DNA from: Bacteroidia bacterium
GTDB taxonomy: Bacteria > Bacteroidota > Bacteroidia > Chitinophagales > UBA2359
Reading direction: 5' to 3'
Assembly: GCA_030427245.1 (NCBI GenBank)
Contig: JAUHXA010000005.1
Coordinates: forward strand, 1 to 64,000
DNA length: 64,000 nucleotides
Below are positions 11,969-24,900 of this stretch, in pieces. A model generated the notes under the pieces. The model did not search any database and was not told the origin of the DNA. It saw only the letters and a list, made by a program, of their open reading frames with translations. Numbering within the stretch: the first letter of the stretch is position 1; every line of letters begins with the position of its first letter. Both the position numbers and the translations under genes were made by a program.

Positions 11969-14900
11969 CTACCGCATCAAATACATCTTCCCCCAGCCAT
12001 TCTTAAACAAACCATCTACTTTCTCATTGGTTTGATAATTATCCAAAGCTTGTCCCTGTTGATAAGCGGTCACTCGATACAAATACACACCATTCGCCAA
12101 ACGGTTGCCAAACTCGTCTGTGCCATCCCATTTGTATTCGGTCAGATTGCGGCCAATGAACAATTGACCCAAGTCTTCCCCATTGATTTCCTTTACGATT
12201 TTGCCCGAAATCGTCATAATTTGGATGCGAATTTGTTCAGGAATTTCACTGCCTGTAAGGGTGAAAACAAATTGAGTACTCGTTGTGAAAGGATTGGGGT
12301 AGTTCAATACATTGGAAATCAGGTGTTCGTTCACCACTTCAAAACTCGTTTTGTAGGCTTTGGCATCAAAACGGTTGTCACTTCGATCTTTGGCACTTGC
12401 ATTAAGGGTGTAAGTACCATCTTGAAGTAGGGTAGGAGTATAGACGATGTTCGCCTCGTTTTTGCCCTCCGCAGCTTGTGTTTGAGTAGCAGGGGTGAAT
12501 TGAATCAACTCGCTGTCCATGCTCAATTCTTCGATAGTTCCATCGGGATGCTCCAAACTCAGGCTGAAATCATCGGCATCGTTTAGCTCCAAAAATGGAT
12601 TGTCGTCTTTGGCTCGAATCAAAATCTCTGGACTCGCCGAAACCAAGTCACCATCCAAAATGTGCCTACCATCAAAGGTGACATCCAAAAGCGGATTTTT
12701 TTCATCCGAAGCCACAAAGAAAGGCACAAACAGGATATTGTTGAAGCCAAATTTTTCGACTTGATGACTGTTTGGGTTTAGTTCCACGACTAAGATGTTG
12801 TTGCCCACCAAACCTTCTGTGGAGTGTTCGAGTTCACTGATGTAGGTTTCTCCTGCCATCATGGGTTTCTGGGCGGATTTGTCGAGAGGTATGGTTTCGT
12901 TTTGTTGATTGATAATGGTGTAGCCAATCAACAAACTATCCGCAGAGGCATCACTGGCATTGGTAACAGCTAATTTTAGGCGCATCATTTCGCCTTCTTG
13001 AAGGGTGTCGCTGTGAAACTCAAAGAAGGACTGACGATTCAGTGCAAACTCAGGCGCACGCTCAAAATGTACCCGCCAATGATCCATTTGTGGAGCGGTG
13101 AAATTGATGGTGTCCGAAGTGACGGCTTGCAGGCGTAGAAAAGGATAGGTTGTTGCAGGAATTTCACTCAAATCAAAGTTCTGCTCTTTGCCTGTTTTGA
13201 GCAATAAGGTTTCTGCTCCAAATTCGGGAATCCCAAATACATTGATGCTGATGTCGTCTTTATCTGCAAAAGGCTCTAAGCTGTGATAGTCCCATTGAAG
13301 ACTCTCCCAGTTTTTTGAAGGTCCAATAGCGGGCGAATAAAATGTACCTTTTTCTTCTGTGCCAACTGTGAGTCGGAGTTCAATTTTTTCGTTTAGGTCT
13401 TCTTCGGTTGTTGCCACAAATTGACCAGGGTAGTTTGATGCGCCTTTTCTGCCAAAAAGGATGAATGTTTGGTCGGGGTTGATGTTTCGGACTTGAGGAA
13501 TACCCAAATCTTCGTAAAATTGTAAGATGGATTCTTGCCGCCCAAAAATCGGCTCGCTCACATCATCTGTTCCTAAGCGGTGATTCCTAACAGAATACGA
13601 CAAAACATAATAGCCATCGGGTATGTCTTCGTACATAAAATTGAGCATACTATCCAGTTGTTCCTCTGTTCCCGTATGGAATTCAATTCCTGCTTTGAAG
13701 CCCGCACTGCATTGAATATTTCCATAAGTACCTCGTCCATTGCAGCCTCCTTCCAGTACGGTACGCACCGAAAGCATAGGCTCTAAAGGCGCAGCAGGTT
13801 TGAAGGCAGCAAAGACTATTCCGCCATTGCAGCCACCTGTCAAACAAGATTGCCCAATGATTAAATTGAGGTTCAATACAATTCCGATGTCATTGACATT
13901 GTTGTGTTGGTTGGTTATCCAAAATTCGTTTTCGAAGCCTGTGTAGTCGAAATTTCGACTCGTTTCGTCCAGTATCATTTGGTCGAATTGATCTTGTTGG
14001 AATTGGTAGAAATGTGATTGATTCCAGCCTTTTTTGCTTTGAGGGGCATAGATAAACGAACTTTGCTGCCAACTAAAGTCGGTTGCATCGGAAGGGATTG
14101 GACTGACTCGCCAATAATAAACGGTTTGATCAATGAAATTTATATCAGGTTGCCATTCAATGACTCCTGCTTCACTTGTCAAAGTATGTTGAACAAAAAG
14201 GGAGCTATTGAAGGCGGTGGTCGTATCAATTTGTATGATGTATGCCTTTGCCTCACTGTCGGGTTGTCCTGTTGAAGCAAAAAGCGTGGGTTTTGTTTCC
14301 GTAGCAATTGCAAAATTGCAGGGACTGATGGGAACGAGAAGGTCGGAAAAAATGGTGAGGTCTTTTACAACCGTATTGTTGTCTTCACAATCTTCTTCAA
14401 TTTTTCCTTCGTAATCCACTTCAACGGTAAGCGAATTTTTTCCTGACACAAAACTACCTTCGCCCATTTGGACATACATTTGCAGTGTGTCCACATAAAC
14501 TGGCATTAAAATTTTCTTTGTGGCTGCAATTTCTTGGCTGTCATCAGGGAAGGTTCTTCTAACAAGAATTTCGACCGAATCAGAAGTCGCCTTACCAAGA
14601 TTGGCAAGTACTACATTGACTGCAAAGGAATCCAAATTGGTCGTCAATTGAGCGGGAGTAATGAATACATCTGCGGGTGTAACCGCTAATTCGGGTTTTT
14701 CCCAACTGTTGAGGATGATGGCAGGATCGCAAGTAAGGGCAAATTGTTCGCTGACCAAGCGAGTGCCCTTGAGGCTGTTGGTAGCAGCTTCAGCATCCAA
14801 AATGGTTTGTTGAAGGATTTTTCCAATAGAAGTGTGGTAATTTTCAACGCACATATTTTGGTACAATTCCGTTACGTGAATGTCCATAAAAGAAGGAAAT

Positions 14901-17071
14901 CCAAAGCTAATGGAAGACATATAACCTATTGCGCCCAAATCTTTGGCCAAGACCCAATTTTCTGCCATGCTTCCTTCGCTGCCTTCAATGTTGTTGCGGT
15001 GAATGTTGCCTGTAAAACAGGAACTTCCGATGATCATGGGGTATCTACCATAGTTTTCAAAATCATAAGGAGAGCCTAAAGGAATGTTAAAATCAGGACC
15101 AGATGAATGACCAAAAAAGTTAATAATAGAAAGTCCGTTGTTGATGCTGTTGTCGAGTTCTATCGCTTCAATGACACTGTCACTGGCTTTGGAGTAGCGA
15201 AAGACTACTTTTCCGCCCATCATGCGCTGTTCAAAAATGTCGGAATAGCCATCAATATAACTTGAATATTCTTCTTCTTCTTTTAGGTTGAGTCCGCCAG
15301 CCAAGTGCATAGCGTGTTTGGACCAAAGGCGGTCGGCTTTGGTGCAGGGTGAATTTTGAATGTCTTCGTAAGTGATTACCTTATCCAAGTAGTTTTGAAC
15401 CTCTTCAGGCGTGTTTGCGGGTACTCTACCTGTTGCCAACTGGGGCTTGTAGCTGCTATTGTCTAAGAGTGTGCTTAGCCAATTGTCAGAAGGTATGTGT
15501 CCAAAAGTAGGCACTAAGTTTTGACTCCATGCAGCAGCGTTGGTGCGAGAAAAATTGTAGCTAACCGATTTGCCCAATAAGAAGAGGTACTCAGGTTTCA
15601 CGCTCCATTTTTCAATTGCAAAGTTGGTGAAGTTTCGGATAGAAGAAGGATGTTTTTCCACACCATAGGCAAATTGGTCGTAGAGTTCTTCCACATTTAT
15701 CAATATGACCTTGTGGTTTCCTCCTGCTTCGCTTTTTCGATAGTCCGCATATCGCTGTGCTTGGTTTACATTGCCTTGCATCAAACTTGGATGAGTGAGG
15801 ATGAGGTAGTTTCCTTGGTTTTGCAGGGCGGTATGATTGATGAAATTGACTTCTTGTGTTTGTGAAACAATGCTTGGGGTAATGGGCGGATTTTCAGGAT
15901 CAATCTGAAAATTGCTGTGAGACAGATGTAGTTTTCGCTTCGTCTCTCCATTCACTACCTGTGGTAAAAATATTTTGTAAACTCGTTCTCCACCATTATG
16001 GGTGACAGTTGGCTGCAATCGTATGTGATGGGTCAAGTCGTACAACAAAGGGGCATTTCCACCTCCAAAATTTTTGATTTCGAGGTATTTGTCTCCGTCA
16101 TTCGCAATCTCAAAAGTGAAATTATGGGTCAGTTCGTCAAACTCAAAAGTTCGTGGATAGGTAATCGTATAGTAGGATACCGAGAACTTATCTGCAATGA
16201 CTCCTTCGTCCTGTAAGGATTCGTAGTACATGATATTGTCTGATTCCTTCAATAAATTCAAAGGGACTTCAAAACTTCGGCTGATGTTTCCTCTACCTTC
16301 AAAATAGGTGTCGACATACAGTTCTCCATTGAAGCGAACTTGGGTATGGTGATCATCGGTAGGTTTGCTGAAATCATCTGACCAACCGACGATTCTTGTT
16401 TCAATAGTCGCTTTTTCGCCTTGCGAATAAATAGAAGGTGTGTTGGAACTGAAACTAATGCTCTTTCCATCCAAAACGGTTCCGCTTACAAAACCTTCCC
16501 CATCACCATATTCAGCATAGTAGTTGTGTTCATTGGCAAAATTGGTAATGGAGTTGCCAGGGAAGAATTGGTTGAGCATGGCATTGACTACTGTATGTGT
16601 GAAAAATTCTTCTTTGGGCGGAACATTGCTCAAATTGTTTTCGATACTTTGGTAGCGTAGGTTTTCGTTTTGTGTGTTGGAAGTGAGATAGTAAGCACTG
16701 GTGTCGGTAAAGAGGCTGTAAAAATTGTGCAACTGATAAGGGGTTTGTACAAATAAATCCTTGTCCAATGATCCATCCAATTTTTCGCCATAAAATTCGA
16801 TGTAATCATTCACTCCAAAAGTACCGTTTGTGCTGACATGAATGGGAATTTCTTGACCCATATACATCAATTTGAATTGAGAACCTTCCAATGGAAGGCT
16901 CATTTGTTGCAAGATATTGAAGGGAATTCGGTGGAGTTTACTTTCTGCAACATCTATTTTATAGTAAGTCTTATCGAAGTCTATCCATTCGTTTCCATAA
17001 GTTTGTTGGGCGGATAGGTTTGTACTGATGAAGGTACAGATTATTAGGATTAGAAGTACCTTTTGTAGCAT
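11969..17071 (-). CDS. porU: PorU-like C25 cysteine peptidase of the type IX secretion system
   Basis: 1700-residue exported protein starting MLQKVLLILIICTF with a signal peptide ending LSAQQ. The gingipain-type C25 domain contains H655 (NFFGHSSG) and C685 (GSSCFTGN), the expected catalytic dyad. Two CARDB-like Ig modules follow (about 860-960 and 1390-1510). The last 100 residues are a FlgD-like CTD (YPNPF, WDGTDEFGNRLANGVYLYRV, then KNGWGKMYLMR), the ending typical of PorU. PorU is the outer-membrane sortase that removes cargo CTDs and attaches A-LPS. It is longer than P. gingivalis PorU (about 1160) because of the extra Ig modules. porV lies 97 bases upstream. The open frame extends to 17224, but the signal peptide fixes the start at 17071. 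Confidence 0.85.
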   Translation of the reverse strand: MLQKVLLILIICTFISTNLSAQQTYGNEWIDFDKTYYKIDVAESKLHRIPFNILQQMSLPLEGSQFKLMYMGQEIPIHVSTNGTFGVNDYIEFYGEKLDGSLDKDLFVQTPYQLHNFYSLFTDTSAYYLTSNTQNENLRYQSIENNLSNVPPKEEFFTHTVVNAMLNQFFPGNSITNFANEHNYYAEYGDGEGFVSGTVLDGKSISFSSNTPSIYSQGEKATIETRIVGWSDDFSKPTDDHHTQVRFNGELYVDTYFEGRGNISRSFEVPLNLLKESDNIMYYESLQDEGVIADKFSVSYYTITYPRTFEFDELTHNFTFEIANDGDKYLEIKNFGGGNAPLLYDLTHHIRLQPTVTHNGGERVYKIFLPQVVNGETKRKLHLSHSNFQIDPENPPITPSIVSQTQEVNFINHTALQNQGNYLILTHPSLMQGNVNQAQRYADYRKSEAGGNHKVILINVEELYDQFAYGVEKHPSSIRNFTNFAIEKWSVKPEYLFLLGKSVSYNFSRTNAAAWSQNLVPTFGHIPSDNWLSTLLDNSSYKPQLATGRVPANTPEEVQNYLDKVITYEDIQNSPCTKADRLWSKHAMHLAGGLNLKEEEEYSSYIDGYSDIFEQRMMGGKVVFRYSKASDSVIEAIELDNSINNGLSIINFFGHSSGPDFNIPLGSPYDFENYGRYPMIIGSSCFTGNIHRNNIEGSEGSMAENWVLAKDLGAIGYMSSISFGFPSFMDIHVTELYQNMCVENYHTSIGKILQQTILDAEAATNSLKGTRLVSEQFALTCDPAIILNSWEKPELAVTPADVFITPAQLTTNLDSFAVNVVLANLGKATSDSVEILVRRTFPDDSQEIAATKKILMPVYVDTLQMYVQMGEGSFVSGKNSLTVEVDYEGKIEEDCEDNNTVVKDLTIFSDLLVPISPCNFAIATETKPTLFASTGQPDSEAKAYIIQIDTTTAFNSSLFVQHTLTSEAGVIEWQPDINFIDQTVYYWRVSPIPSDATDFSWQQSSFIYAPQSKKGWNQSHFYQFQQDQFDQMILDETSRNFDYTGFENEFWITNQHNNVNDIGIVLNLNLIIGQSCLTGGCNGGIVFAAFKPAAPLEPMLSVRTVLEGGCNGRGTYGNIQCSAGFKAGIEFHTGTEEQLDSMLNFMYEDIPDGYYVLSYSVRNHRLGTDDVSEPIFGRQESILQFYEDLGIPQVRNINPDQTFILFGRKGASNYPGQFVATTEEDLNEKIELRLTVGTEEKGTFYSPAIGPSKNWESLQWDYHSLEPFADKDDISINVFGIPEFGAETLLLKTGKEQNFDLSEIPATTYPFLRLQAVTSDTINFTAPQMDHWRVHFERAPEFALNRQSFFEFHSDTLQEGEMMRLKLAVTNASDASADSLLIGYTIINQQNETIPLDKSAQKPMMAGETYISELEHSTEGLVGNNILVVELNPNSHQVEKFGFNNILFVPFFVASDEKNPLLDVTFDGRHILDGDLVSASPEILIRAKDDNPFLELNDADDFSLSLEHPDGTIEELSMDSELIQFTPATQTQAAEGKNEANIVYTPTLLQDGTYTLNASAKDRSDNRFDAKAYKTSFEVVNEHLISNVLNYPNPFTTSTQFVFTLTGSEIPEQIRIQIMTISGKIVKEINGEDLGQLFIGRNLTEYKWDGTDEFGNRLANGVYLYRVTAYQQGQALDNYQTNEKVDGLFKNGWGKMYLMR

Positions 17072-17168
17072 GTCAAGATATATTTTTATAATTGATGACG
17101 GGATTTTGTGAAGGAGAACAGAACTGTTGGGTTTTTCGGGTCTAGCAGTTGAAATCTTCATTTTCCAA

Positions 17169-18248
17169 CTATTCTGATTTACTGAAGTTAAATACCAAAG
17201 AGAAAATGTGAGAATACACACCATCGTCTACTCGATTGAAGCCCGTAAAGGCATAGTCTAACTGTAATTCTTTGATTTTGATGCCGATTCCTGCATTGGG
17301 CTGAGTGCTGGTAAGTGTTTCACCTGTTAAGTCATCCGTGAATTGTTGGATGTTGTTCATGCCACCTCGTAGGAAAATGGAATTGTCAAAACCCAATTCC
17401 AAACCAAAGTGAGGATCCATGCTCATAAAATCACTTTTCACTAATACATTGCGTTTGCCATCGAAAGTGAAATCTATATTGGCTTCTGCCAACAATGCCA
17501 ATTTTTCGCCAAAATGGAAGTTGTAAGCAGCTCCTAAAATCGCCCTTTGTCCAGTGAGTTCAACCGAACTTGAAGGGATTACATTGTCCGTCAATGCCAG
17601 CATTTGTTTTTCCTCTTCCGTGAAATTGAACGACCAGGCGTTAATGGTCGTTGTTAAGTCCTTGATAGTTAAACCCAATTGAAAATTATCGCTGACCTTC
17701 AATTGTGCACCAATGTCTAAACCAAAACCCCATGAATTGGCAAAACTGCCGACGGTTCGGTGAATGACCTTGACGTTTGCGCCTACATTCAGTTTGTTGA
17801 TTTTCTGGGCATAAGAAAGTAAAAAAGCATAGTCGGCTGCCGAAAAAGTGGTGACATTGTCGTAATTGATACTGCCATCGGGTTCGATGATGAAAAGGGT
17901 ATTGGGTATGTCGTCTACTCCAAAACGAATAGCCGAAAGCCCTAATGCTCGACTACCATTGGAAATCGGAAGTGCAAGGCTTAGATAGTCGTATTTGGCG
18001 ATACCTGCAAACCATTCGGAGTGCATAGCACCGACTTGAAAGTTTTGCAGTTCTGCCAAACCTCCAGGATTCCAAAACCCAGCCGTTACATCATTGACGG
18101 AAGCATTTTGGGCATTTCCCATTGCCAAAGCCCTGGCACCTACACCCAATGACAAAAATTCATTGCTGTATTTTCGGACTTCTTGGGCGGAGAGTTCACC
18201 CATGAAAATCAGGGTGAATAAGATAATTGTGTATATATTTTTAAACAT
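17169..18248 (-). CDS. porV: PorV/PorQ-family outer-membrane protein of the type IX secretion system
   Basis: 359-residue FadL-like barrel with signal peptide (MFKNIYTIILFTLIF to about residue 22, ending LSAQ). The mature start RKYSNEFLSLGVGARALAMG followed by AGFWNPGGLAEL is characteristic of the PorV/PorQ family. PorV shuttles CTD cargo from the translocon to PorU, and the adjacent porU supports PorV over PorQ. The start at 18248 was chosen over the upstream in-frame ATG (18311) because it gives a proper signal peptide. A consensus promoter lies about 165 bases upstream and the intervening leader contains an inverted-repeat element (18305-18394). Confidence 0.85.
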   Translation of the reverse strand: MFKNIYTIILFTLIFMGELSAQEVRKYSNEFLSLGVGARALAMGNAQNASVNDVTAGFWNPGGLAELQNFQVGAMHSEWFAGIAKYDYLSLALPISNGSRALGLSAIRFGVDDIPNTLFIIEPDGSINYDNVTTFSAADYAFLLSYAQKINKLNVGANVKVIHRTVGSFANSWGFGLDIGAQLKVSDNFQLGLTIKDLTTTINAWSFNFTEEEKQMLALTDNVIPSSSVELTGQRAILGAAYNFHFGEKLALLAEANIDFTFDGKRNVLVKSDFMSMDPHFGLELGFDNSIFLRGGMNNIQQFTDDLTGETLTSTQPNAGIGIKIKELQLDYAFTGFNRVDDGVYSHIFSLVFNFSKSE

Positions 18249-18304
18249 ATTGAAAACCAATCGAGATGAAAACAAAAACGAAATTTGATATTGTGCGTTC
18301 ATAT

Positions 18305-18394
18305 CATGCAACAGAAATAATTGGAGTTTTTGAGGTGAAATCTGATTATTACTTCAAAGATTACACCTTACTCTCTAACAAACCTTGTTGCATG
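18305..18394 (-). repeat. Nested inverted repeat in the porV leader
   Basis: Outer arms CATGCAACA (18305-18313) and TGTTGCATG (18386-18394) are perfect. Inner arms AGGTGAAATCT (18333-18343) and AGATTACACCT (18358-18368) pair with one mismatch. The inner motif and its flank (ACTCTCTAA after it) are related to the element at 32072-32190. It lies between the predicted porV promoter and start codon, so it would be transcribed. It is either a short dispersed repeat or a structured leader. The remaining bases between porV and the next gene (to 18566) show nothing else beyond the promoter. Confidence 0.6.
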
Positions 18395-21143: not shown

Positions 21144-23570
21144 ATGAAAACGATTTACCATTATCTCTTTTTATATTGTTGCTTCACTGCAATGAGCCTC
21201 TCCATGTCTATTCACGCACAAAACTGTCCCAACAAAATAGCTGTCACCGTAGAAATCATACCGGATCGTTCCGCAGCATTAGAAACCAATTGGCGATTGA
21301 CCGATAGTATGGGCAATACACTCGCAGCAGGAAAAGACACAGGGGCAACGGTTTGTGTAGAGGCAAGTCAATGTTTGACTTTTACGATTGAAGACAGTTT
21401 TGGAGATGGATTGCAGGATTATGGAGGACATCCCGACGGACGCTTTTCGCTGTACTATGATGGAGAGTTGATGGCCCGAAAGACCAATTTTGGGAGCATT
21501 TTTAGCGTACAAATGGGAGGATGTCCTATAGGGTCGAGTTGTGCCTTTCCGATTGCTGCAAAAACGGATTGGATATATCCCGCTCAAATACCCAACAACT
21601 GGTATGTTTTTGAAGCCGAAGAAACGGGACGTTACTTGTTGACTACCTGCGATTTAACCAATGACTGCAATAGCGCAATTTGGGTGTACAATTATTGTGA
21701 AGGATTGGAGTGGGACGATACACAAATCGGAACAATTTTTTATGCCGATGGTGGCTGTGGCGAATTGGCAGAGGCAAGTATGATTTTGGAGAAAGACAAA
21801 ACCTATTTTATCAGAGTAGGAGGTGACGAAACCTGCGAAAACAAATCGGTAAATTGGAAGATTACTTTTGTCGGACCGATAGTGGGTTGTATGGATGTAA
21901 CTGCCTGCAATTTTGACCCTTTGGCTACAGTGTCGGATGAAAATGCCTGTGTCTATCAAGGTCATGCAAACTGTCCTGATGGTCCCGATTTGGTGGTGTT
22001 GGAATATGTGCTGCGAAACAGTTTACAGTTGAGTTATCTCCAAAATGAAGATGGCTGTGCGATTCAAGAAGGTTGTCTACAAGGCTATGGCACTCGTGAA
22101 GTTTTGCGATTCAGTACACATATCCGAAATATTGGTGACAAGGACTACTACCTCGGCAAACCGCCGCAAGGTGCAAATGCAGATCAGGGTGAATGGGAAT
22201 GGGATGACTGCCACAATCATTGGCATTATGAGGGTTATGCCGAATATGTACTGTACGATGAAGGAGGAAATGAATTACCAATTGGCTTCAAAAATGGTTT
22301 TTGTGTGGTGGATTTGGATTGTCCTGACGGAAACAACAAATACGACTGCTCCAATCAAGGAATTTCGTCGGGTTGTGGGGATGTTTACGACTTCAATTTG
22401 GCGTGTCAATGGGTGGACATCACCGAACTTGAAGCAGGGTTTTATACTTTGGTTGTGCGGGTCAATTGGATGGAGCGTCCCGATGCGCTTGGTTTTCACG
22501 AAAGCAATTACCACAACAACTGGGCAAAGGTTTGTTTTCAGTTGGAACGAGGTCAACAAAATGAACCTTATATCACCAAAATGAATGAATGTGAGGCGAT
22601 TGTGGATTGTCTGGGTGAGGTCTATGGAACGGCTGATGCGGATTGTTCGGGAGACTGTGAAGGCAGCTTGAAAGCAGGCGATCGAAATGGAGATTTGTTG
22701 TATTCTTATGCAGATGTGAATGTATATATGCACGAATTGTTGAGTGAAAATGGGGAATACAACACTTGTACGGACTTGAATAGCGATGGTAAAATCAGCA
22801 TTGCCGATCCCGCCTTGTTGATCGCTTGTGAATTGGAAAGCAGCGGTATTCACACACATTCTACCCTGAGTCACAATCACTGCGAATTACCCACATCGGC
22901 TATCTTCAATCCCAATCACGAGGCAATTTTCAGCATTGGAGATGTGCGCTTGGACTTTCAATACATAGATGTATATGTTACCAATCCCAATAGTTCTATT
23001 TTGGCTTTTGAACTACAAATAACAGGCTTGGACATCATGAGTGTGTTTCCTTCTTACGATACCGAATTATTTGATTTACAACTATCTCACAACTCCAACG
23101 GCAAACTATTTGGCTTGACCTACAATGATAAACCCTTCGCCAAAAGCTACCAACCAATTCCCTTTTTCCGCCTCTATTATACCGCTATCACAGACGAAAC
23201 GATTTGTATTTCACAAGTTCAAACAGTTATGAATCAAAACTATGAGGAAATAGCGGTGACTTTGAAGGATGCGTGTACGGATGTTGATGTTTGGAGTGCT
23301 ATTGAAGGGATAGAAAATGCGGAAACCTCTGTTCGTCTTTTTCCAAATCCTTTTTCTGAATTTTCAGTTTTTTATTTTGAGAACTTTGAAATAGGAAGTA
23401 AAAATCAGTCTTTGGATTTGATTTTGATGAATGTGAATGGGCAAATTGTTAGGAGGTATGGAGCGCTTGATATGGACTTCAATAGGATTCGGATTGAGCG
23501 GGGAAGTTTGGCAAGTGGAGTATATTTTTGGCGATTTGGGGAGGAAGGAGGGAAGGTTTTGATTTGGTGA
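21144..23570 (+). CDS. T9SS-secreted lysyl-oxidase-like protein with dockerin-like segment
   Basis: 808-residue exported protein (signal peptide to about 26, ending SIHAQ). Visible parts: a DSFGDG-containing beta domain (30-130); a pre-peptidase-like domain (135-250); a GCMDVTACNFDP repeat; a lysyl oxidase domain (about 280-480); a dockerin-like pair of DxNxD loops (510-563: DRNGDLLYSYADV, DLNSDGKISIADP); a cohesin-like beta segment (580-715); and a T9SS CTD (LFPNPF to the end). The LOX domain has the copper motif WEWDDCHNHWH with H357, H359 and H361. K383 (GFKNGFC) and Y415 (GDVYDFNLACQW) align with the two residues that form lysine tyrosylquinone in animal LOX. I infer a secreted copper amine oxidase acting on lysines of extracellular protein. 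Confidence 0.88.
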   Translation: MKTIYHYLFLYCCFTAMSLSMSIHAQNCPNKIAVTVEIIPDRSAALETNWRLTDSMGNTLAAGKDTGATVCVEASQCLTFTIEDSFGDGLQDYGGHPDGRFSLYYDGELMARKTNFGSIFSVQMGGCPIGSSCAFPIAAKTDWIYPAQIPNNWYVFEAEETGRYLLTTCDLTNDCNSAIWVYNYCEGLEWDDTQIGTIFYADGGCGELAEASMILEKDKTYFIRVGGDETCENKSVNWKITFVGPIVGCMDVTACNFDPLATVSDENACVYQGHANCPDGPDLVVLEYVLRNSLQLSYLQNEDGCAIQEGCLQGYGTREVLRFSTHIRNIGDKDYYLGKPPQGANADQGEWEWDDCHNHWHYEGYAEYVLYDEGGNELPIGFKNGFCVVDLDCPDGNNKYDCSNQGISSGCGDVYDFNLACQWVDITELEAGFYTLVVRVNWMERPDALGFHESNYHNNWAKVCFQLERGQQNEPYITKMNECEAIVDCLGEVYGTADADCSGDCEGSLKAGDRNGDLLYSYADVNVYMHELLSENGEYNTCTDLNSDGKISIADPALLIACELESSGIHTHSTLSHNHCELPTSAIFNPNHEAIFSIGDVRLDFQYIDVYVTNPNSSILAFELQITGLDIMSVFPSYDTELFDLQLSHNSNGKLFGLTYNDKPFAKSYQPIPFFRLYYTAITDETICISQVQTVMNQNYEEIAVTLKDACTDVDVWSAIEGIENAETSVRLFPNPFSEFSVFYFENFEIGSKNQSLDLILMNVNGQIVRRYGALDMDFNRIRIERGSLASGVYFWRFGEEGGKVLIW

Positions 23571-23639: not shown

Positions 23640-24086
23640 CTACCTTTTTCGATTCTCTATCACCTCCGCATCCTTCAATAAATACATCAAACCATAAATG
23701 TCGTCCACCAATTCGAGTGTACCTTTGAAGGTCAACATCTGATCCATTTTGAAGTGTTGATTGTCGTCTTTCATACGAATTTCCATAACCGATTCCTTGC
23801 CCGCTGCTCCACAAAAGAAGCAAGCACTATAAGGAAACGCCGACAATACATAGACATCTCCCGTCACATCCACAGGCACCATAAAGCCTTCAACAATTAC
23901 CTCCTTGCCGTCCATTTTTTTTACTTTGGTATTGAAGTTGGGTTTATTGTACCATATATCTTGCTCAACATCATAGGTATAAGTAAACTTCGCATCCAAC
24001 AAAATGTCCCAGGGCAGATCTGTTTGGGCAGTGGCCGTAAATTGGAAAGTGAGAAGGGTAAAACAGAAAAATAGGAAGGATTTCAT
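23640..24086 (-). CDS. Small secreted protein with CFFCG motif (DUF3299-like)
   Basis: 148-residue protein with signal peptide (1-20, ending TATAQ). The mature part holds KKMDGKEVIVEGFMVP, then PYSACFFCGAAGKESVMEI and a C-terminal GTLELVDDIYGLMYLLKDA. This arrangement, an OB-like beta core with a CxxC-type pair, resembles DUF3299-type periplasmic proteins of unknown function. The cysteines could bind a metal or form a disulfide. It is convergent with the lysyl-oxidase gene (70 bases between stops); a role in copper or redox supply to that enzyme is possible but only suggested by position. Confidence 0.6.
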   Translation of the reverse strand: MKSFLFFCFTLLTFQFTATAQTDLPWDILLDAKFTYTYDVEQDIWYNKPNFNTKVKKMDGKEVIVEGFMVPVDVTGDVYVLSAFPYSACFFCGAAGKESVMEIRMKDDNQHFKMDQMLTFKGTLELVDDIYGLMYLLKDAEVIENRKR

Positions 24087-24351: not shown

Positions 24352-24900
24352 TTACTCTGCAATCGGAAAAACAATAAATTGAGGAGGAATCGGTTCTGCA
24401 AGCCATATACCATTGTTTTCGAGATAAAAATCAATTCCGCTGCGATACGCCTCCAATGCCTTGACCTCCAAAATAGTTGGTCGAAAATCACGCCTTTTTC
24501 CGACAATCATAGCCGTTTCGATATCTGCTGAAAGATGTACATATTGGCGATTCATGGGCAACAATCCGCTATCTTCAATCAGTGGAACGGTCGCTCTCGG
24601 CGTACCGTGATAGAGAATTTCGGGCGGTTCATTGGTGGTTTTGGTGATTTTTTTGGCGATGGAATGACCGTAAAAGGCCCGAATTTTGCCGTCTTTGACT
24701 TCGTAACGTTGTTTGTCAGCAGCAGCCATCATGTCCAAAATATCCTTTTCGGTAAGGTTTTTCCATTTTTCTTGTCGCTGCAATCGGCTTATCAATCCCT
24801 CCAAAGAAGTCCAACCTTCTGGGTCGAGGGTAATACCAAATTGATCGGGTCTGTGCCGCAATATTTTGGAAATGGTTTTGCTTAATCTTGTGTAATTCAT
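24352..24900 (-). CDS. kptA: RNA 2'-phosphotransferase (Tpt1/KptA)
   Basis: 182-residue member of the Tpt1/KptA family, which removes a 2'-phosphate from RNA using NAD+ and releases ADP-ribose 1'',2''-cyclic phosphate. The N-terminal winged helix has SKTISKILRHRPDQFG and LDPEGWTSLEGL, and the ADP-ribosyltransferase half has LYHGTPRATVPLI, VHLSADIETAMIVGKRR and a terminal GIWLAEPIPPQFI. All fit full-length active enzymes. In yeast the step finishes tRNA splicing. Bacteria lack that pathway, so the natural substrate is unknown. It stands alone, with 265 bases on one side and 179 on the other that hold no recognisable gene. Confidence 0.93.
   Translation of the reverse strand: MNYTRLSKTISKILRHRPDQFGITLDPEGWTSLEGLISRLQRQEKWKNLTEKDILDMMAAADKQRYEVKDGKIRAFYGHSIAKKITKTTNEPPEILYHGTPRATVPLIEDSGLLPMNRQYVHLSADIETAMIVGKRRDFRPTILEVKALEAYRSGIDFYLENNGIWLAEPIPPQFIVFPIAE

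Follow-up and report, generated by a model that had tools for sequence, protein, structure and literature searches.

A lysyl oxidase-like protein with a predicted type IX secretion tail in Bacteroidota

The window (the whole stretch of DNA analysed, 64,000 nucleotides of a Bacteroidia contig) contains an open reading frame (ORF) at 21144-23570 on the forward strand that encodes a protein of 808 amino acids (aa). Does this protein carry a working lysyl oxidase (LOX), and where and on what would such an enzyme act? An earlier note had placed an animal-type LOX active site at 22190-22390 (residues 349-415), within an architecture of pre-peptidase, LOX and dockerin-like modules followed by a C-terminal domain (CTD) for the type IX secretion system (T9SS). 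The features of the ORF were as follows:

21144-21218, forward strand: predicted signal peptide for Sec export, residues 1-25, with its end near ...SIHAQ (assigned by eye; model helix 2-21)
21225-21524, forward strand: N-terminal beta domain, residues 28-127 (model strands; kept in 34 family members; no Pfam match)
21525-21881, forward strand: second beta domain, residues 128-246, called pre-peptidase/PPC-like in the earlier note (no Pfam match)
21882-21974, forward strand: short cysteine-containing linker, GC-D--AC-F-P-A, residues 247-277 (invariant residues)
21981-22544, forward strand: LOX catalytic domain, residues 280-467 (PF01186, LOXL2 phmmer, profile and Foldseek)
22212-22226, forward strand: copper-ligand motif H357-x-H359-x-H361 (HxHxH; invariant in class A)
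22290-22292, forward strand: K383, predicted lysine of the lysine tyrosylquinone (LTQ) cofactor, equivalent to LOXL2 K653 (invariant)
22386-22388, forward strand: Y415, predicted LTQ-forming tyrosine, equivalent to LOXL2 Y689 (invariant)
22656-22841, forward strand: dockerin-like calcium-loop pair, residues 505-566 (model helices 522-534 and 554-566)
22902-23282, forward strand: beta-sandwich, residues 587-713, possibly cohesin-like (model strands 588-713)
23337-23567, forward strand: T9SS C-terminal sorting domain, residues 732-808 (PF18962, family matches and solved CTDs)

The Pfam profile search suggested in the earlier note returned PF01186 (Lysyl_oxidase) over residues 313-465, with an E-value of 5.1e-31 and 108.3 bits against a cut-off of 20.4 bits. 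This was the only PF01186 match in the source genome. Human LOXL2 (5ZE3) was the sole relative recovered by a single-sequence phmmer search of the PDB (5e-22), and a 28-sequence family profile matched LOXL2 at 1.4e-34. Judged from these sequence matches, the LOX assignment is far above chance. Structure prediction, which the same note had proposed to compare with LOXL2, pointed the same way. A model of residues 270-484 made from an alignment of 28 sequences had a mean pLDDT of 90.4, and its top PDB matches in Foldseek were two LOXL2 chains (E-values of 3.2e-16 and 6e-16; query TM 0.70 and 0.68); the next match was unconvincing (8e-4, TM 0.29). LOXL2 was again the first fold match of the full-length model (pLDDT 83.9, pTM 0.59).

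Translation and alignment with LOXL2 confirmed the three histidines at 357, 359 and 361 in an HxHxH pattern, and K383 and Y415 aligned with the LTQ residues together with their local context (FC after the lysine, CQW-DIT after the tyrosine). The ORF motifs were WEWDDCHNHWH, GFKNGFC and DVY...CQWVDIT, as against IWHDCHRHYH, GHKASFC and DMY...CQWVDIT in LOXL2. H357, H359, H361, K383 and Y415 did not vary in the 81 sequences of class A (80 close Bacteroidota relatives and the 808-aa ORF itself), and the HxHxH motif of these 81 was common to LOXL2, Gemmatirosa, Streptomyces and the divergent class B LOX of Bacteroidota. Eight cysteines (305, 311, 356, 387, 393, 402, 411 and 421) were likewise invariant in 81/81. 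They align with LOXL2 disulfides C573-C625, C579-C695, C657-C673 and C663-C685. Mass spectrometry has placed five disulfides in LOXL2 (PMC9180022), these four and C732-C746, and the comparison covered the four.

Two accessory histidines of LOXL2, H623 and H652, are replaced in the ORF by Asp354 and Phe382. Since these histidines aid LTQ formation in LOXL2, where changing H623 or H652 to Gln lowers LTQ to less than 50% (PMC9694262), their replacement speaks for an inactive LOX-fold protein with a binding or structural role. Asp354 stands at the first histidine of the human WEWH motif, as in Streptomyces LOX; bacterial LOX are generally without this histidine (PMC4448552), and an earlier mutant study is cited there as having found it dispensable. 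The residues that LTQ formation in LOXL2 does require include H626, H628 and H630 (PMC9694262). The five essential residues of the Bacteroidota protein are invariant in all of class A over wide divergence, which would be unexpected in a pseudoenzyme, and an inactive protein is very improbable. Failure of the histidines, K383 and Y415 to cluster in a model had been offered as a refutation of the active site. The lysine and tyrosine lie 16.6 Å apart in the human precursor crystal (PMC9694262), so an unclustered lysine-tyrosine pair in a model would be a poor test.

How far the site is animal-type was assessed against LOXL2 and other bacterial LOX. The ORF domain and LOXL2 are alike in the five catalytic residues, the eight cysteines, the CQWxDIT context and the fold, at about 30-35% identity. 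Unlike LOXL2, the ORF protein is without SRCR domains, and its beta domains, dockerin-like module and T9SS tail are without LOXL2 equivalents. The 'lysyl oxidase family proteins' of Streptomyces and Gemmatimonadota (28-31% identity) have HxHxH, the lysine and the tyrosine but are missing the CQW motif and between four and six of those cysteines. Class B sequences keep the five catalytic residues, and they too are missing the CQW motif, together with roughly half of the cysteines. In pairwise BLAST of the ORF LOX domain, the score was highest for LOXL2 (100 bits), followed by Gemmatirosa (72 bits) and Streptomyces (46-57 bits), and no class B sequence scored above 42 bits. Within this limited sample, the scores and cysteines support the animal-type label, which holds for the eight cysteines and CQWxDIT and fails at Asp354, where the human motif has its first histidine. 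A tree placed LOXL2 beside the Bacteroidota clade with support of 99/76, on long branches, with one animal row, no deltaproteobacterial LOX and a warning of long-branch joining. For these reasons, a claim of animal origin from the tree was dropped. The presence of eight LOXL2 cysteines in class A, with about half or more of them missing from the other bacterial LOX compared, bears on the origin of animal LOX.

The modules around the LOX domain were less securely named, and the labels dockerin-like, pre-peptidase and cohesin-like are provisional. In the family alignment, linker residues G248, C249, D251, C255, P259, C269 and C277 were invariant. A PPC domain found no Pfam match in the 808-aa protein at E-values up to 1. 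Dockerin_1 matched at 0.095, below threshold, and the family profile matched several solved dockerins at 0.007-0.6. A cohesin-FnIII construct (2w1n) was among the whole-model fold matches, and a genome search with cohesin PF00963 gave no match in the 21144-23570 gene. Of the architecture first described, LOX and CTD stood, the pre-peptidase was without a Pfam match and the dockerin match was weak.

The last 73 residues scored 24.1 bits against Por_Secre_tail (PF18962; cut-off 27), and the same tail scored 21.5 bits against TIGR04183 (cut-off 23). Por_Secre_tail matches were nevertheless found in 34/34 full-length family members at E-values up to 1e-3, and the family profile matched the solved T9SS CTDs 8GLK (8e-8) and 8GLJ (8e-6). 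The coupling of a T9SS CTD to LOX proposed in the earlier note, sub-threshold in this protein alone, was thereby borne out at family level, and a type A CTD is predicted in the LOX protein. The source genome contained at least 150 Por_Secre_tail matches. Genes for PorU2 and PorV2 (NF052324 and NF052325) lay upstream of LOX at 11972-18311 on the reverse strand, at a distance of 3 kb. The PorU2-type protein in this interval is a putative T9SS sortase with a peptidase C25 region and a FlgD-like end; a literature search that covered few subscription journals found no paper on PorU2 in type IX secretion. An operon link between LOX and PorU2/PorV2 was considered and rejected, since the pair did not recur next to LOX at the 80 named loci.

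Together, these features suggest the following course. Sec would carry the protein over the inner membrane; the protein would then form its disulfides on folding and bind copper through H357, H359 and H361, and K383 and Y415 would be self-processed to LTQ. The CTD would direct passage across the outer membrane by type IX secretion to the cell surface or medium, where the amino groups of lysine, or primary amines of another kind, would be oxidized to aldehydes outside the cell with release of NH3 and H2O2. A copper-dependent LTQ amine oxidase at the cell surface is the reading we favor, with a probability of roughly 80%; copper, quinone and activity are predicted from sequence. We favor it because of the PF01186 match (5e-31), the likeness to LOXL2, the invariant residues and cysteines and the sorting tail; because of the genome's at least 150 Por_Secre_tail matches and the nearby PorU2 and PorV2; and because a distant archaeal LOX is active and H626, H628 and H630 are essential in LOXL2. 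Counted against it were Asp354 and Phe382, the lack of a conserved neighboring or substrate gene among those searched and the lack of a collagen match above cut-off in the source genome.

The most likely use of such an oxidase would be modification or crosslinking of exposed proteins on the cell's own surface or matrix. Crosslinking of own-surface proteins by the exported LOX is put forward tentatively, at somewhat under even odds, with both substrate and crosslinking being putative. The LOX of Haloterrigena turkmenica (HTU-LOX) is likewise prokaryotic and is an active amine oxidase in vitro, sensitive to 3-aminopropionitrile; it differs in being archaeal, in being without T9SS and in having a host function termed cryptic (PMC6452851). 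HTU-LOX, the sole characterized archaeal LOX, is promiscuous and takes small amines, aminoglycosides and polymyxin (PMC6452851), so crosslinking is not implied by homology. A surface oxidase of small amines (polyamines, cadaverine or free lysine) that scavenges nitrogen or produces H2O2 against competitors, with no protein crosslinking, would fit this promiscuity, and no conserved substrate gene was found near the LOX loci. The large multidomain, surface-directed architecture kept over many species suggests, indirectly, a placed substrate instead, and small-amine oxidation is considered rather unlikely.

T9SS cargo often acts on external polymers. This habit raises a third use, in which the enzyme attaches to or modifies foreign proteins on prey cell surfaces or in animal or algal matrix. 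The ColG collagen-binding domain (5iku) was among the whole-model fold matches (probability 1.00, rmsd 15.4), a match that is not region-specific and is to a common beta-sandwich fold. The named relatives are for the most part uncultured bacteria represented by metagenome-assembled genomes, with no host tie apparent. Action on foreign proteins is unlikely, more so than small-amine oxidation, and own-surface crosslinking is kept as the preferred use of the predicted surface oxidase.

A scan of named species genomes found relatives at 391 loci. The best 80 of these 391 came from Saprospiraceae, Chitinophagales, Flavobacteriales and some Cytophagaceae and Hymenobacteraceae, with Lewinella cohaerens included, and all 80 contained the C-HxHxH motif and a lysine-xx-FC-type motif. 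In the source GTDB family, 19 of 20 other genomes had a PF01186 match, with up to five copies and with some genomes containing divergent LOX only. PF01186 was matched in 81/299 genomes of the order, 97/395 of a class draw and 4/395 of a phylum draw (source genome included); strong class A matches (~800 aa) and weak class B matches (~700 aa) are pooled in these counts, and the class and phylum draws differ such that no overall LOX prevalence is derivable. Viral contigs searched contained no relative. By these sequence comparisons, the LOX and T9SS architecture is common to a large Bacteroidota family and not peculiar to one protein, and the family extends further and shows stronger conservation than the earlier note knew.

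Bacteroidetes LOX were reported in 2015, and prokaryotic members mostly have simple architectures (PMC4448552), in agreement with the earlier remark that bacterial LOX-like proteins were known. Searches found no literature on 'lysyl oxidase' with 'Saprospir' (most subscription journals lay outside the search), no assayed Bacteroidota LOX member and, with few subscription journals covered, no study that connects LOX with the T9SS; the sole co-mention was an oral-cancer review. The T9SS-LOX family appears undescribed within the searchable literature, and database entries for its members may already be automatically named. The native role of prokaryotic LOX has been termed cryptic (PMC6452851). 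The conserved export tail and architecture across a large family predict the site of LOX action, and the native role becomes accessible to standard gene deletions and inhibitors in Bacteroidota that grow in culture, e.g., Lewinella. A speculative and unlikely extension is that T9SS-exported LOX serves many environmental Bacteroidota for the covalent crosslinking, by allysine chemistry, of proteins of their own surface or matrix. If it were true, with own-matrix crosslinking and a disulfide scaffold in common with the animal enzyme, a LOX-built extracellular matrix would be no animal invention.

Conserved LOX neighbors matching those of the window were not found, and relatives showed lineage-level synteny only. 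In one Flavobacteriales lineage (L110, L117, L120, L123, L128 and L130), a secreted protein of ~1000 aa was encoded directly downstream of LOX; this is probably lineage synteny, and a LOX partner is possible. Within the window, a protein of 148 aa, predicted to be exported, with the motif CFFCGAAG and without a Pfam or NCBIfam match, was encoded just downstream of LOX (23643-24086, reverse strand), followed at 24355-24900 (reverse strand) by a KptA/Tpt1-like RNA 2'-phosphotransferase with scores under the equivalog cut-offs. Class B sequences (L018, L019, L030 and L017) were ~700 aa long with HxHxH, the lysine and the tyrosine and a weak PF01186 match; some had Ig-like domains and a T9SS tail. 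Tandem class A genes (L061 and L064) occurred at one locus. Longer frames with a LOX domain also occurred, one of 2172 aa (G003:C111:5689-6177) and others of 1100-1600 aa.
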